Shown here piece by piece: positions 13,844 to 21,474 of a stretch of 53,517 nt of DNA. Each line of letters begins with the position of its first letter. Positions within the stretch are counted from its first letter, which is position 1. The position numbers and the translations under genes are program-made. The stretch spans positions 1-53,517 of the forward strand of contig JAILZS010000014.1 of the NCBI GenBank assembly GCA_023512375.1, given 5' to 3'. The notes under the pieces are model-generated. The model was not told the DNA's origin. It did not search any database and was given only the letters and a program-made list of their open reading frames with translations. Origin of the DNA: Bacillota bacterium (lineage in GTDB: Bacteria; Bacillota; Sulfobacillia; JAJZYS01; JAILZS01).

Positions 13844-15535
13844 GTGAACGTGAAGCTCGCCGCCTACTTAGGCCGCCTCCCGTCCGTCCAGGTGAGCGCC
13901 GTCGCGAAGCGGGCGGGCCCAGAGGCCGAGGGGGCCCTTGCCCGCGCCGGCGTGGAGGGGCTCGCCACCCACTTGGCGGGCGCGGAGCGGGTGGCGGCCT
14001 TGTTCGACTGCCTCGACCCCGAGGTCCGGCGCGTCGCCTACCGCCTGGCGATGCTTCCGGGGAGCGAGGCGCCCGTGGCGCTTCTCGTACACTTCCTGGG
14101 ACAGGGGTCAGGGGCTGGGCGCGCCCGGGTGGAGGAGGCGGTTCGCGCCCTGTGCGACGCCGACCTGGCCTTCTGGGTGCGGCCTGACGCCGTCGCCATG
14201 CCGGAGGAGTTCCTCCCCGGCGTCGTGCGCGTGCTCGAGCGGCGGGCGGTGCGGGTGGTGGCGGCGGACGGCGTGCCGCGCGAGCGCGTGTGGGAACGCC
14301 CGCCAACCCGCGTCGTGGCCGACCTGGCGCGACTTCTCGGCCGCCTGCGCCTGGGGGCGGCGACCACGCGCACGGGACGCGTGGCGCGGCGCGAACAGCT
14401 TCGCCTGGCGGCGTACGTGGAAGGGGGCGGGGAGGGGATCGCCGCCGCCACGGGGCGGGACTTCGACCTCGCCCCCGCCTGGGACGAGTACGACGCCCGC
14501 CTCGCTCCTTGGCTTGCGGTGGCGGCGTTGTACGGTCTCGTGCGGGTCGAGCGCGGCCGGGGGGTCGTGCCGTCGCCGGAGGGGGAGCGATTCCTCGCCC
14601 AGGACGCGTGGTGGCAGTGGGAGAGGGCGGCGGAGGCCTGGCTCCACCTCATGCGCCGCCACGGCGCGGGCCTGCGCGCCTTGTCGCCCGACTTCATCGC
14701 ATCCTCGCCCGAGGGCGGGTGGCTGGACCTGGAGGCGGCGGCCGAGGAGTACGGGCGGGCGAGCGACCCGTGGGGGCTCACCCCTCGCGCCCTCCTCCGG
14801 CTCATCTCCGCCACCGGCTACCTACTGGGCACGCTTCGCCTGGCGAGCCGGGGCGAGGCGGCGGCCGGAGAGACGCCCCTGCCCCTCGTCATGCCGACGG
14901 CGGCCATGCGCGCCCTGGCCGAGCGCAAGGCGGCGCCGTTGGTGCCGGTCGAGGGGCGGCTGCACCTGGACGCGAACATGGAGGTCGTGGCCATGGGCGA
15001 CCTGCCGGCGCGCCTGTGGGCCGACCTGGCGCTCTGGGCGCAGCCTCGGACGCTCGACCGGGCGAGCGTGTGGCAGTTCACGCCCGCCTCGGTGGGGGCG
15101 GCGGCGGCCGCCGGATGGGCGGTGACGGGGCTGTTGGCTGCGCTGGCGGAGGCGGCGGCCGGCGGGGTGCCGCAGGCCATGGAGGTGCGTCTGCGGGAAT
15201 GGGGCCACGCGGCCGCCGTCGAGGTGCGTTTGCGCAGCGTCGTGCGCCTGGAGGAGGGCAGCGACCGCGCCCGTCTGAAGGAGCTTCTCCTCCGCCTGGG
15301 CTTGGAGCGCGCGGGGGAGGGGCTCTTCCTCGCCGATCCCGCGCGCCATGCCGAGGTGGTGCGGGCGCTGGAGGCCGAGCGCGTACGCGTAAGGGCGGAC
15401 GAGATCTCGCCCTCTCCCTTCTCCCCCCCGTCCGGCGGGCGCGGCGGCCGTCGCCTGCAGATGCCCTGGCCAGGGCCCTTCCAGGAGCGGCTTTCCCTGA
15501 CGTTTCCTGGCGCGGGCAGAGCGCGCCGCCGCTAG
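13844..15535 (+). CDS. XPB/Ssl2 N-terminal-domain protein, first of two paralogues
   Basis: The start is GTG at 13844 or GTG at 13850 (GTGAACGTG); the ribosome binding site is weak, but a possible -10 (TAGGAT, 13807-13812) lies about 31 bases upstream. The 563-residue protein is mostly helical and carries the helicase-associated XPB/Ssl2 N-terminal domain: VEGRLHLDANMEVVAMGDLP, then DRASVWQFTPASVGAAAAAG, around residues 370-430. Such proteins accompany bacterial XPB in actinobacteria. Near the C-terminus it carries MPWPGPF (residues 540-546), which also occurs at the same distance from the start in the next gene. It has no helicase motifs of its own and is probably a partner or regulator of the XPB enzyme two genes downstream. 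Confidence 0.7.
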   Translation: MNVKLAAYLGRLPSVQVSAVAKRAGPEAEGALARAGVEGLATHLAGAERVAALFDCLDPEVRRVAYRLAMLPGSEAPVALLVHFLGQGSGAGRARVEEAVRALCDADLAFWVRPDAVAMPEEFLPGVVRVLERRAVRVVAADGVPRERVWERPPTRVVADLARLLGRLRLGAATTRTGRVARREQLRLAAYVEGGGEGIAAATGRDFDLAPAWDEYDARLAPWLAVAALYGLVRVERGRGVVPSPEGERFLAQDAWWQWERAAEAWLHLMRRHGAGLRALSPDFIASSPEGGWLDLEAAAEEYGRASDPWGLTPRALLRLISATGYLLGTLRLASRGEAAAGETPLPLVMPTAAMRALAERKAAPLVPVEGRLHLDANMEVVAMGDLPARLWADLALWAQPRTLDRASVWQFTPASVGAAAAAGWAVTGLLAALAEAAAGGVPQAMEVRLREWGHAAAVEVRLRSVVRLEEGSDRARLKELLLRLGLERAGEGLFLADPARHAEVVRALEAERVRVRADEISPSPFSPPSGGRGGRRLQMPWPGPFQERLSLTFPGAGRARRR

Positions 15536-15595
15536 CCGATAGGGGGAGGGCGCGGGCAGGCGTCGAACCGAAGGGAAGCGAGGAGGAGGTGGAGG

Positions 15596-17539
15596 ATGGC
15601 TTCGGGGGCACGCCGCCCGCTTCCGCCGCCCGACGCCGCCTGCCTGCGGGAAGAACAGGTGGGGCTGGTGCTCGAGCGCCTCTGGCTGGCCGCCGCCCTG
15701 CCGTTGGCCGCTGGGGCGGGGGCGGTCGAGTGGTGGGAGGCGGACGGGGCGGAGCGCGCCATCGAACGCCTCAAAGGAGCGGGCTGGGCGGAATCCACCG
15801 GCCGCGGGGGTTGGCGTCTCCGCCCCGCCGCCGCGGCGGCCGCGACCGAGGCGGTGACGGCAACCTGGCGGCGGGAGGGCGTCCTCGTGGCGGTCGATCC
15901 CGGACGCGCCTGGCGGCGGCAGGAACCCGCGGCAGCGGTGGCCGCCATGGCACGCCTCCTCGCCGCGGTGGACGGCACGCGCGCCACGGCGCGCCGACGC
16001 CTGTCGAGCGCGGCGGTGGCCGCCGCCCGGCGCGCCGTGGCCCCCATCGAGCGCGAATGGGGAGCGGCGGGAGGGCGCGAGGTGGTCTCCGCCGCACACG
16101 ACGAGCGGCACCCCGCCCTGGCGGTGTGGGAGGGGTGGGAGCCCGACGTGGCCGCGTGGGTCGGGCTCGCCGCCGACCTCGGGCTGTTCGCCCTGGCGGA
16201 CGATCCGGCCGGCGCGGTGTGGACCGTGCCGGCGGGGGCGCTCGAGGAGTGGTTCGCCGCCTCCCCCGGCGGGCGCTGGGCGCGCCTGGCCCATGCCTTC
16301 CGCCGCATGGCCGACGTCCACGCCGTAAGCCGCGTGCTCCTCTGGCCGGAGGAGGGGGAGGCGGTGGTGCCCGGCAGGCTCTTGGCCTGGCTGGCGCAGC
16401 GCGACCAGCGCTATGCCGCCCTCGCCGCCTACGCCATCACGGCCGTCGTCGGCGGCGCCTTCCGCCTCGGCCTGGCGGCGGTGGCGCCGGCGCCTGGGGG
16501 TGGGGAGGACGGCATCGCTGTGCGCCTGCTGCCGGAGGGGCGGCGGCTCCTTTCGGGCGAGGGGGCGGATCCTCCACCTCTCGCACCCGCATCGGTAAGG
16601 GTGACGGGCGACTTCCGCGTGTACGCGCCGGCGGCCGACGATCCGGAACGCGCCTTCTGGCTCGCCCGCTTCGCCGACCTGGAAGGGGTGGACGGCCTGG
16701 CCGTGCACCACTTGACGCGGTGGCGCTGGACCGATGCTTGCCAAGCCGGCTACGCGCCGGACGACGCCCTCGCCTTCCTGACGGACGGCGGGGACGGCAG
16801 CATGCCTCCCAACGTCGCCTTCACGCTGGAGCACGACTGGAGCGGCATCGACGCCGCCGGACCGGCGATGGCGCGGGTGGAGGCGGCGCTCCTCCTGCGC
16901 CTGCCGGACGAGGCGACCGCCGCCCGCCTGCGCGCCCTTCGGGCCGTGCGCTCGGCGGTGGCGGAGGAGATCACGCCCACCGTGTGGCGCCTGCACCCCC
17001 TGGACGGGCGGGCCTTGGGACGGCTGCGCGATCGTGTGGCGGAGGCGGGGACGATGTTGGCCCTCGCGCCGGAGGCGGTGCGACCCCCGGAGGAGGGGAC
17101 GGGCGGAAAGCGGTCCGCCCGTCCGCCCGACCGGGCAGGGGCCCGACCGAGCGCGCCCTACGCCGAAGGCGGCGGCCTTCCGGTGCACTTGGATGGCGAA
17201 CCCGTGCGCCTGCCGTGGCCCGGCCCGTTCGATGGCGGCGGGGGTGCGGCCACCCCGTGGCGGCTTGAGGTACCGGGGCGTGCGCCCCTTCCCGCCCGCC
17301 TGCCGCCCCGCCCACCCCCCCAGGCATGGCGGCGGCTGGCGCGCTCGCTTGCGCCGGGTCACCGCCTCCTGGTGGCCACGCGGCAGGAGGGGATCCTGCG
17401 GGTGGCGGTGGAGTGGGCCGACCGCAACGGGCTCGCGGGGCGGGGGGAGGACGGCGTCCTGCACGTGTGGGAGACATCGGAGATCCTCGGCCTGTGCGAG
17501 CCCGGGCAGGTGGACGTGACGGGGGCACGGCGGTACTGA
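15596..17539 (+). CDS. XPB/Ssl2 N-terminal-domain protein, second paralogue
   Basis: The ATG at 15596 follows GAGGAGGAGGTGGAGG. The 647-residue protein is only weakly similar to its upstream neighbour but has the same plan: a helical N-terminal half, an XPB/Ssl2-N-like segment (VRVTGDFRVYAPAADDPERA, then LAVHHLTRWRWTDACQAGY) near residues 335-390, and LPWPGPF at residues 539-545. After that it adds about 100 residues with a beta-rich stretch (RLLVATRQEGILRVAVEWA) that the first paralogue lacks. It has no ATPase motifs. It sits 60 bases after the first paralogue and 33 bases before the helicase gene, so the three form one operon. Confidence 0.65.
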   Translation: MASGARRPLPPPDAACLREEQVGLVLERLWLAAALPLAAGAGAVEWWEADGAERAIERLKGAGWAESTGRGGWRLRPAAAAAATEAVTATWRREGVLVAVDPGRAWRRQEPAAAVAAMARLLAAVDGTRATARRRLSSAAVAAARRAVAPIEREWGAAGGREVVSAAHDERHPALAVWEGWEPDVAAWVGLAADLGLFALADDPAGAVWTVPAGALEEWFAASPGGRWARLAHAFRRMADVHAVSRVLLWPEEGEAVVPGRLLAWLAQRDQRYAALAAYAITAVVGGAFRLGLAAVAPAPGGGEDGIAVRLLPEGRRLLSGEGADPPPLAPASVRVTGDFRVYAPAADDPERAFWLARFADLEGVDGLAVHHLTRWRWTDACQAGYAPDDALAFLTDGGDGSMPPNVAFTLEHDWSGIDAAGPAMARVEAALLLRLPDEATAARLRALRAVRSAVAEEITPTVWRLHPLDGRALGRLRDRVAEAGTMLALAPEAVRPPEEGTGGKRSARPPDRAGARPSAPYAEGGGLPVHLDGEPVRLPWPGPFDGGGGAATPWRLEVPGRAPLPARLPPRPPPQAWRRLARSLAPGHRLLVATRQEGILRVAVEWADRNGLAGRGEDGVLHVWETSEILGLCEPGQVDVTGARRY

Positions 17540-17572: not shown

Positions 17573-19369
17573 ATGGTCGGCGTGGACGGCGCTTCGGACC
17601 GGCCGCTCATCGTGCAGGGGGACCACACCCTCCTTCTCGAGGTGGACCATCCCCGCTACGCGGAGGCGCGCGACGCCATCATGCCCTTCTCGGAGCTCGT
17701 GAAGAGCCCCGAGCACGTGCATACCTACCGCATCACGCCCCTCTCTCTATGGAACGCGGCCGCCGCCGGCCACGACGCCGCCTCGGTCCTAGCCGCGCTG
17801 GAATTGCTTAGCCGCTATCCGTTGCCGGACAACGTGCGCGTCACCATCCTCGACCACATGGCCCGCTACGGCCGCCTCCAACTCCGCTCCGACGGGGAGG
17901 GGGGGCTGTGGCTGACGGCCGACGACCCTGACCTCCTGACGGAGGTGGTGCGCCACCGCCTCGTCGCCCCCTACGTCGAGGAACGCCGGGGGGCGCGGGT
18001 CCGCGTCCAGGTGACGGCCCGGGGCCTTCTCAAGCAGGCCCTCATCAAGGCCGGCCACCCGGTCCAAGACCTGGCGGGCTACCTGCGGGGGTCGCCCCTC
18101 GAGGTGCGGCTGCGCGAGCGCACGCGCGACGAAGGCGTCCCCTTCGCCCTGCGCGACTACCAGACGGCGGCGGTGGACGCCTTCTGGGCCGGCGGGGGCA
18201 GCGCCGGGGGAAGCGGCGTGGTCTGCCTCCCCTGCGGGGCGGGCAAGACGCTCGTGGGGCTGGGGGCGATGGCGCGAGCGGGGGCGCACACGTTGATCCT
18301 CTGTTCGAGCGTGAGCGCCGCCCGCCAATGGGTGGAGGAGATCCTGCAGCGCACCCACCTCACGCCCCGCGAGGTCGGCGAGTACAGCGGCGAACGCAAG
18401 GAGATCCGCCCCGTCACCGTCGCCACCTACCAGATCCTCACGAGCCGCCGCGACCGCCGCGCCGACGACTTCCCCCACATGCGCCTCATGGCGGCCGCGG
18501 ACTGGGGTCTGGTCATCTACGACGAGGTGCACCTCCTGCCCGCGCCGCTCTTCCGCATGACGGCCGACATCCAGGCGCGCCGCCGCCTGGGCCTCACGGC
18601 CACGCTGGTGCGGGAGGACGGGCGCGAGGACGACGTCTTCGCCCTCATCGGCCCCAAGCGGTACGACGTGCCCTGGCGGGAGCTCGAGGCCAAGGGGTGG
18701 ATCGCCGCCGCCGAGTGCTGCGAGATCCGGGTCGACCTCGAACCCGAGCGCCGCCGGGCGTATGCTCTGGCCGAGGCGCGAGACCAGGCCCGGCTGGCGG
18801 CGGAGAACCCCGTCAAGGACATGGTGGCGGCCGAGCTGGCGGCCATGCACCGGGAGGAAGGCGTCCTGGTCATCGGCCAGTACCTGGAGCAGCTCGAGCG
18901 CCTGGCCGTGCGCCTGGGGGCGCCCCTGGTCACGGGCCGCACCCCCCAGCGGGAGCGCGACCGCCTGTTCGCCGCCTTCCGCCGGGGCGAGGTGCGCACC
19001 TTGGTCGTGTCACGGGTGGCCAACTTCGCCATCGACCTGCCGGAGGCGTCGGTGGCGATCGAGGTGTCGGGCCTCTTCGGCTCCCGCCAGGAGGAGGCGC
19101 AGCGCCTGGGCCGCATCCTCCGCCCCAAGGCCGACGGCCGCCCCGCCCGCTTCTACGCTCTCGTGAGCCGCGACACGCGGGAGCAGGAGTTTGCCCAACG
19201 CCGCCAGCTCTTCCTCGTGGAGCAAGGGTACCGCTACACCATCCAGGCTGCGGCGCCGCGCACCGCGGAGGCAGGTGTGGCAACGCCGCGGGTGCCCCAT
19301 GCCCCGGCCTCCCTCGGCCGCGTCATTCCCTTCCCCTCCGCGGCCAGCCGGCGCGGGCGGCGGGGCTGA
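17573..19369 (+). CDS. xpb: Bacterial XPB-type superfamily 2 DNA helicase
   Basis: The 598-residue protein has the full XPB layout. An N-terminal XPB-N domain (residues about 10-110, PLIVQGDHTLLLEV onward) precedes the two helicase domains. Motif I is PCGAGKT (220-226), motif II is DEVH (317-320), motif III is GLTATLVRED with the XPB RED motif (347-349), and motif VI is QRLGRILRP (from 510). Such helicases open DNA with 3'-5' polarity in repair or remodelling. The archaeal partner nuclease Bax1 is not visible here; instead two XPB-N-like proteins lie upstream. A GTG nine bases inside is an alternative start. The next gene starts four bases after its stop. Confidence 0.92.
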   Translation: MVGVDGASDRPLIVQGDHTLLLEVDHPRYAEARDAIMPFSELVKSPEHVHTYRITPLSLWNAAAAGHDAASVLAALELLSRYPLPDNVRVTILDHMARYGRLQLRSDGEGGLWLTADDPDLLTEVVRHRLVAPYVEERRGARVRVQVTARGLLKQALIKAGHPVQDLAGYLRGSPLEVRLRERTRDEGVPFALRDYQTAAVDAFWAGGGSAGGSGVVCLPCGAGKTLVGLGAMARAGAHTLILCSSVSAARQWVEEILQRTHLTPREVGEYSGERKEIRPVTVATYQILTSRRDRRADDFPHMRLMAAADWGLVIYDEVHLLPAPLFRMTADIQARRRLGLTATLVREDGREDDVFALIGPKRYDVPWRELEAKGWIAAAECCEIRVDLEPERRRAYALAEARDQARLAAENPVKDMVAAELAAMHREEGVLVIGQYLEQLERLAVRLGAPLVTGRTPQRERDRLFAAFRRGEVRTLVVSRVANFAIDLPEASVAIEVSGLFGSRQEEAQRLGRILRPKADGRPARFYALVSRDTREQEFAQRRQLFLVEQGYRYTIQAAAPRTAEAGVATPRVPHAPASLGRVIPFPSAASRRGRRG

Positions 19370-19372
19370 CGG

Positions 19373-19954
19373 GTGGCGCCCGACTGGGCGGCGCTCTTGG
19401 CCGTGCCCGCCTTTGGCGTCGACACGCTGGCGGTCTCGGCGGGCATGGGACTCACGGGTGCGCGCCTTCCCTGGCGGCTTGTCGCCACCTTCGCCCTGTT
19501 CGAGGGGACGATGCCGGTCGTCGGCGCCCTGGCGGGCGCCGCCCTGGGGGCACGCCTCGCCCGCGCCGGCGTCCTCCTGGGGGCGGCGCTGTTGGCCGCG
19601 CTGGGGGTAAAGGAACTCGTCGAGGCGTGGCGAGAGGGGAGCCAGGCGGAAGGGAAGGGGGCGGACGGCGACGGGCCGGCGGCGGCGCGCGGCGCCCCCG
19701 AGTCGCTGCCGGCGCTGGCCGCCGCCGGCCTGTCGGTGAGTTTGGACGAGCTGGCCGGCGGCTTCGCGGTGGGGGCGGGCGGTCTCCCCCTATCGCTCCT
19801 CCTGCCCGCCTTCGCCTTGCAGGCGGCGCTGTTCACCTGGCTGGGGATGGCGGCCGGCGCCCGTCTGAGGCGCCTGGTGGGGCGATACGGGGAGTTCGCG
19901 GCTGGCGCCGCCTTCCTGGCCGTGGCCGGCGCCCTGGCCACCGGCCTATTGTGA
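19373..19954 (+). CDS. mntP: MntP-like manganese (metal) exporter
   Basis: The 193-residue membrane protein starts with GTG four bases after the xpb stop, so it is probably translated from the same message. It has the duplicated, six-helix plan of MntP/DUF204 exporters, with the paired signatures FGVDTLAVSAGMGL in the first half and SLDELAGGFAVGAGGL in the second. The aspartates within them are the expected metal ligands. A charged, low-similarity loop (REGSQAEGKGADGDG) joins the halves. Efflux of manganese or a related ion across the cytoplasmic membrane is likely. Its link to the helicase operon is probably only positional. Confidence 0.7.
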   Translation: MAPDWAALLAVPAFGVDTLAVSAGMGLTGARLPWRLVATFALFEGTMPVVGALAGAALGARLARAGVLLGAALLAALGVKELVEAWREGSQAEGKGADGDGPAAARGAPESLPALAAAGLSVSLDELAGGFAVGAGGLPLSLLLPAFALQAALFTWLGMAAGARLRRLVGRYGEFAAGAAFLAVAGALATGLL

Positions 19955-20640: not shown

Positions 20641-21336
20641 CTAGCCCGAGTGGGCGATGAGGCGGGCGAGGCCGTAGGCGACGGCGGCGGCGGTGCCGCC
20701 CACGAGCATCGTCTGGAGGGCGGAGCGCCACGGCACGAGCCCTGTCACCCTCCCCTTGTACGCCCCGAACACGAGCAGCGCGGCCAGGGTGAAGGCGGCC
20801 GAGATGAGGAGGGCGGTGTGCACGGGCAGGGGGAACAGGTAGGGGATGAGGGGGATGAAGCCGCCCACGGCGTAGCTCAGGCCGATGACCGCCCCTGACC
20901 GCCAGCCGTGGCTGGGGTGGGGCTCGCTCAGGTCGAGCTCCTCCCGCATCATGAACCGCACCCACGTCTCGGCGCTGGCCGTGAGGGCGTTCACCGCCCG
21001 TTCCAGCGTTTCGCCCCCCAGGCCGTACCCGGCGAGGATGTCGCGCACCTCGCGCCGCTCCTCGTCCGGTACGGTCACGACCTCGTGGTGCTCCCGCGCC
21101 AGCTCGCGGCGGTAGGTGTCGAGCTCGCTCGCCGCCGCCAGGTATCCCCCCAGGCCCATGGAGATGGCCCCGGCCGCCAGCTCGGCGAAACCGGCCACCA
21201 CCACGAGGAAGGTGGTATGCACTGCCCCAGACACTCCGGCGGCCAGGGCGAACGGCACCGTCAGCCCGTCCGACATCCCGAGGATGATGTCGCGCACCGA
21301 CGTGCGCGAGTCCAGGTGTCCGCTCTCCAGCTCCAT
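20641..21336 (-). CDS. VIT1/CCC1-family iron or manganese transporter
   Basis: The 231-residue protein starts with ATG at 21336 after GAGGGGAG; the frame is open further upstream without a better site. It begins MELESGHLDSRTSVRDIILG and continues with the family signature GMSDGLTVPFALAAGVSGA and AISMGLGGYLAAASELD. A cytoplasmic metal-binding region rich in glutamate (about residues 70-125) precedes three C-terminal helices (GGFIPLIPYLFP). Members move ferrous iron or manganese out of the cytoplasm or into stores. With the facing MntP-like gene it makes a small divalent-metal cluster. Confidence 0.88.
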   Translation of the reverse strand: MELESGHLDSRTSVRDIILGMSDGLTVPFALAAGVSGAVHTTFLVVVAGFAELAAGAISMGLGGYLAAASELDTYRRELAREHHEVVTVPDEERREVRDILAGYGLGGETLERAVNALTASAETWVRFMMREELDLSEPHPSHGWRSGAVIGLSYAVGGFIPLIPYLFPLPVHTALLISAAFTLAALLVFGAYKGRVTGLVPWRSALQTMLVGGTAAAVAYGLARLIAHSG

Positions 21337-21474
21337 GCGCGGCTCCCCTCGCGGGCGTCTCGCGGCGGGGCCGGGCACACAGACGCCTCCGGCGCCCCCG
21401 CCCTTGGCCCCCGCCGACCCACAGCGCTAGCATGGCCCAAGGACCCTGGGGTTGGCGAGAGGGAGGCGGGTCGA

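Follow-up and report, generated by a model that had tools for sequence, protein, structure and literature searches.

The XPB operon and its partner genes

The window, i.e. the whole stretch of 53,517 nucleotides that was analysed (contig JAILZS010000014.1 of a Bacillota bacterium), harbours two genes encoding putative XPB partner proteins, referred to as A and B, which precede the gene of the XPB helicase in the order A, B, XPB, all three on the forward strand (Table 1). Directly 3' of the XPB gene, genes predicted to encode an Mntp manganese-efflux protein (19373-19951, forward strand) and a VIT-family iron/manganese transporter (20641-21375, reverse strand) were detected.

Table 1. Genes, domains and motifs of the XPB operon (positions of the window)
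Feature	Position	Strand	Description
Gene A, p52/Tfb2-like XPB partner	13844..15535	+	563 aa from GTG; PF13625 E = 1.4e-11; best Foldseek hit p52/Tfb2, E = 2.1e-9
Tail of A			short, without C-terminal barrel
Clutch/XPB-N-like domain of A (PF13625)	14966..15208	+	residues 375-455; folded in the model
PWPGPF motif of A	15464..15481	+	residues 541-546 (numbering from GTG 13844); disordered tail
Gene B, p52/Tfb2-like XPB partner, paralogue of A	15596..17539	+	647 aa, ATG 15596; best Foldseek hit p52/Tfb2, E = 4.8e-8
Clutch/XPB-N-like domain of B (PF13625)	16601..16969	+	residues 336-458
PWPGPF motif of B	17213..17230	+	residues 540-545; disordered linker
C-terminal conserved segment of B	17306..17536	+	residues 571-647; small, barrel-like; missing in A
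XPB helicase, third gene of the operon	17573..19369	+	598 aa; NF045503 repair_heli_XPB, 839.9 bits
XPB N-terminal domain (PF13625)	17606..17977	+	residues 12-135; PF13625 E = 9.8e-36

In the first-pass annotation A and B had been described as XPB partners with an XPB-N-like domain. The profile of this domain, PF13625, was found in A, in B and at the N-terminus of XPB, which agrees with the description; A reached 44.9 bits against a cut-off of 34.2, and B stayed below the gathering cut-off with 24.2 bits (E = 3.5e-5). By analogy with TFIIH the N-terminal domain (NTD) of XPB is expected to be the clutch partner of both proteins.

AlphaFold predicted A and B with a mean pLDDT of 63 and 64, respectively, the clutch and the C-terminal domain (CTD) being confident in both. 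The values fall below 50 in residues 520-563 of A and 487-575 of B, two regions which both span the motif and in which low pLDDT may come from a shallow alignment as well as from disorder. The motif follows the XPB-N-like domain in both proteins, as had been stated, and both models place it in a low-confidence, predicted disordered tail and thus outside any buried core strand. The C-terminal segment of B, also of low model confidence, aligns with the tails of the homologues from four genomes (G062, G104, G106 and G082); it retrieved no match in Pfam and looks WYL-like by eye.

Relationship of A and B to p52/Tfb2

A profile of the XPB-adjacent partners searched against the PDB retrieved human p52 (GTF2H4) and the XPB NTD as best hits, and 13 of the 13 matches up to E = 10 were p52/Tfb2 or XPB. 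A second profile, built without the proteins of the window, matched p52 (5e-5), the XPB NTD (1.5e-4) and Tfb2 (3e-4); in its CTD region Tfb5 was retrieved with E = 0.15, this domain resembling both the CTD of p52 and Tfb5. According to the Foldseek searches all of the top 18 (B) and top 20 (A) hits were p52/Tfb2, far ahead of XPB. Most of these alignments comprise approximately 500-550 columns at low global TM-scores of 0.2-0.3, which indicates a domain-by-domain match rather than a single rigid superposition.

The Pfam family Tfb2 (PF03849) was matched by 9 of 15 and by 6 of 20 relatives (best value 3.2e-7), with the one displayed score, 23.4 bits, lying below the gathering cut-off of 34.5; A and B themselves did not match it. 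Furthermore, searches for Tfb2_C (PF18307) in the class and for Tfb5/p8 (PF06331) and p44 (PF04056) in the genome yielded nothing above the cut-off.

Taken together, the profiles and predicted folds identify A and B as p52/Tfb2-like proteins with a putatively XPB-binding clutch fold. Since they remain below the Pfam cut-off and their binding to XPB is a prediction, they are termed p52-like here and are not assigned to the curated Tfb2 family.

XPB-adjacent partner proteins mostly from Planctomycetota (L049-L056, L060-L065) end right after the clutch helix PQNVxYSLEEW, the whole CTD being gone. Outside the clade described below, the CTD of numerous bacterial p52-like proteins (e.g. L148, L108, L007 and L023) ends in the consensus GYMPxPG[IV].

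In 2012 no homologues of p52 had been found in bacteria and a TFIIH-like role of the bacterial XPB was therefore thought unlikely (PMC3353954). The function of the bacterial XPB is still called elusive in a 2026 review, the consulted passages of which name no bacterial p52 (PMC13024598). No later report of a bacterial p52 was found in the open-access literature, to which the search was confined, and the relationship may have been noticed earlier elsewhere. The p52-like identity of the XPB partners is more consequential than the motif that they share. A p52-like protein beside XPB in several bacterial phyla is a concrete and testable partner, and it suggests that the pair of XPB and p52 may predate, or have been exchanged between, the domains of life.

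Distribution and history of the PWPGPF motif

Both neighbouring genes beside XPB encode the motif in frame, A as part of LQMPWPGPFQ and B as part of VRLPWPGPFD, in agreement with the first-pass annotation. Its degenerate codon pattern matches the window twice (0.02 matches expected) and the 2.68-Mb genome exactly twice, namely at the sites in A and B, and the reversed pattern did not match anywhere in the genome. As roughly one match is expected by chance across the genome, the weight rests on the location in adjacent in-frame genes and on the recurrence in homologues. No paper was found by an open-access text search for the strings PWPGP, PWPGPF and WPGPF.

As had been noted before, the two proteins show little similarity in the rest of their sequence, with a BLASTP E-value of 0.017 and 23% identical residues in the multiple alignment. 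Their motifs had also been regarded as occupying the same position, which holds for the residue number of about 540 and fails structurally: approximately 30 residues separate the last folded helix from the motif in A and approximately 57 in B, and 17 and 102 residues, respectively, remain after it. Among the full-length homologues the first residue of the motif varies between 519 and 584. The equal residue number was therefore dismissed as a coincidence.

In a sample of 154 genomes of the class an intact [LM]PWPG was detected at the equivalent tail position of seven proteins from five genomes: A and B of the present genome (G000), one protein each of G062 and G082, the second partner (A2) of G096, and both partners (A1 and A2) of G106. 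These genomes belong to three families of the class, including the one of the present genome. In a sixth genome, G104, both paralogues carry degenerate versions (AGWPGKI and LECPGPF), and in A1 of G096 the motif segment has been lost through an internal deletion. The more than 50 other homologues inspected, including those of the families f2 and f4 of the same order, lack the motif, and a phylum-wide search of 399 genomes added one strong homologue (G173), which is free of it as well. The alignment of homologues from XPB operons thus bears out conservation within a single clade and does not support the motif as a general feature of XPB partners.

Within this clade the W-P-G-P columns are nearly invariant among nine aligned proteins and the linker around them is variable. 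The copies differ by synonymous codons (e.g. CCC TGG CCA GGG CCC TTC and CCG TGG CCC GGC CCG TTC), which argues for selection on the peptide, and shuffling of the tails produced PWPG with a probability of 0.001-0.016 per protein. The XPB gene adjoins every intact copy whose contig extends to it, and the genomes with the motif contribute XPBs that rank among the closest to that of the window. G000, G096 and G106 each have two paralogues in tandem; A and the two A2 proteins of family f47 (G096 and G106) are devoid of the C-terminal segment and end 19 residues past PWPG. B is 34% identical to the XPB-adjacent homologue of G062.

Two of the altered loci deserve a description. In G096 the first partner (L067:8776-10032, reverse strand) carries an in-frame internal deletion that extends from the middle of the clutch through the CTD and the motif and fuses the start of the clutch to the C-terminal segment; its near relative in G106 is intact. 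In G104 the B-type p52-like copy at L133:6457-7530, which contains LECPGPF, has no XPB gene within the 16 kb examined, and the 5' part of the gene is apparently located in another reading frame.

A chance likeness of proline- and glycine-rich tails in a high-GC genome has to be considered, as high GC and proline-rich tails make PWPG-like strings likelier and the pattern coding for PWPGP, CCNTGGCCNGGNCC, matches 55 sites of the genome. It is, however, hardly compatible with seven proteins from five genomes sharing the equivalent tail position, different synonymous codons and a single clade, and we regard it as highly improbable. Selection for the peptide as a motif of the tail is, by contrast, very probable. 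The region around the tail of A (SPSPFSPPSGGRGG) was also considered as a translated DNA repeat and rejected as such, there being no second copy in the window. The part of this tail preceding the motif (15396-15450, EISPSPFSPPSGGRGG) resembles a translated high-GC intergenic repeat, likewise without a second copy in the window. A motif of the beta-clamp type was rejected by eye, its leading Q not being conserved.

In the tree calculated with the tail columns removed (ten clade proteins) all motif carriers fall into one clade with a support of 98/98, and with 99/97 in a fuller tree. Since this grouping is obtained without the tail, A and B are, as far as the tree reveals, paralogues that have retained an ancestral motif. 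The simplest history would be a single gain at the base of the clade followed by a duplication with the motif kept in both copies, which would account for its presence in two proteins of so little similarity. A, which sits on a long branch, was also considered as an orthologue of the short-tailed A2 of G096 and G106, and this placement is disfavoured (AU p = 0.019).

An origin of PWPGP as the GYMPxPG[IV] turn at the end of the CTD, shifted downstream by an insertion, appears improbable. GYMPxPG is the consensus end in one homologue alignment (A4) and directly follows the CTD in eight distinct homologues. However, the carriers retain a separate CTD end (AGVAVEG, AGCDVEG or EGFQIDG) 24-40 residues before the motif, the stretch in between varies in length and sequence, and neither model includes the motif in its folded part.

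A putative docking role and comparison with known systems

PWPGPF is a conserved short stretch inside a variable, predicted disordered region, as is characteristic of short linear motifs. Based on alignments and models we presume, with a probability of roughly 0.55, that it acts as a docking motif for a partner protein. In the proposed arrangement A and B would be paralogous p52/Tfb2-like proteins expressed from one operon with XPB, the clutch of each gripping the homologous NTD of XPB as p52 does in TFIIH. Behind the folded core the tail would be disordered and contain a single conserved short linear motif, [LM]PWPGP[FL], whose tryptophan and prolines may insert into a pocket on a ligand shared by both proteins, XPB being the foremost candidate. 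Docking of the motif would then add a second, tethered contact to the grip of the clutch. The single tryptophan of PWPGP also offers a handle on the use of the tail.

XPB is favoured as ligand because it adjoins every intact copy within reach of the contig and because both motifs of G104 have decayed together, as expected if a common ligand had changed. A search for the docking site among XPB positions kept in the five genomes with intact motifs and changed in G104 gave no signal (4 clade-specific positions against 0-12 in leave-one-out controls). The second copy of G104, which is located away from XPB, yet retains CPGPF, and this counts against docking to XPB. The assignment of XPB as the docked partner is consequently tentative. 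The restriction of the motif to three families indicates furthermore that it is dispensable for XPB partnering in general.

The main rival to docking is a staple formed inside one paralogue or from one to the other: the motif would fold onto the clutch or CTD of its own chain, or onto its sister protein at the CTD or the C-terminal barrel, and thereby hold A and B together as a pair. In TFIIH the CTD of p52 pairs with p8. The missing match for Tfb5/p8 in the genome and the resemblance of the CTD region to Tfb5 would fit such a pairing, as would the tandem gene pairs of three genomes and the presence of the motif in A, which is devoid of the barrel found in B. In the single-chain models, however, the motif packs against no folded part; proteins of the family f10 have a barrel-like tail and no motif, and only one copy each was detected in G062 and G082, both incomplete MAGs. 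A staple therefore seems rather unlikely.

Somewhat less likely still is docking to another protein, such as the RNA polymerase, UvrA/UvrB or a nuclease, by which the XPB module would be recruited. Such a motif, short and placed in a disordered tail beside a translocase, has the typical features of a recruitment peptide, and the pathway partners of bacterial XPB are not known (PMC3353954); no candidate ligand was found, however, and XPB and its partners are the only known constant components of these loci. Returning to the docking of XPB, one may speculate about a reduced bacterial TFIIH-like module, in which XPB would be held by two p52-like paralogues, their paired CTDs would replace p8 and both PWPGP tails would dock to XPB to set its activity; as a whole we consider this module doubtful.

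Short proline-rich and tryptophan-containing peptides in disordered regions, similar to PWPGPF, are also known as ligands of SH3-, WW- and GYF-type domains, and we know of no consensus of this type that fits [LM]PWPGP[FL].

Bax1, the archaeal binding partner of XPB, shares with A and B the proposed association with the helicase (PMC7672443; PMC13024598). It differs in being a nuclease that contacts the thumb and HD2 of XPB (PMC13024598), whereas p52/Tfb2 and PF13625 are the matches of A and B; none of the searches retrieved Bax1.

The bacterial XPB partners with a Helicase_C_3 domain (PF13625) belong to the same family as A and B, and in Bacillota, Planctomycetota and Paenibacillus the partner gene is usually located directly beside XPB. 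In comparison to these, A and B are duplicated and encoded upstream of XPB, and PWPGP is absent from the inspected homologues outside the clade.

In TFIIH the clutch of p52 and the XPB NTD adopt the same fold and form a pseudo-symmetric dimer, which recruits XPB and is linked to the stimulation of its ATPase (PMC6422496). A and B resemble p52/Tfb2 (GTF2H4) in the clutch homologous to the XPB NTD, the N-terminal part rich in winged helices and the CTD that follows; p52/Tfb2 is their best match by both profile and fold, and their genes adjoin that of XPB. They differ from it in their bacterial origin, the two paralogues per operon, the PWPGP motif of the tail and the extra C-terminal segment of B, and their setting differs from that of p52 in TFIIH in that p8 and p44 are without a match in this genome.
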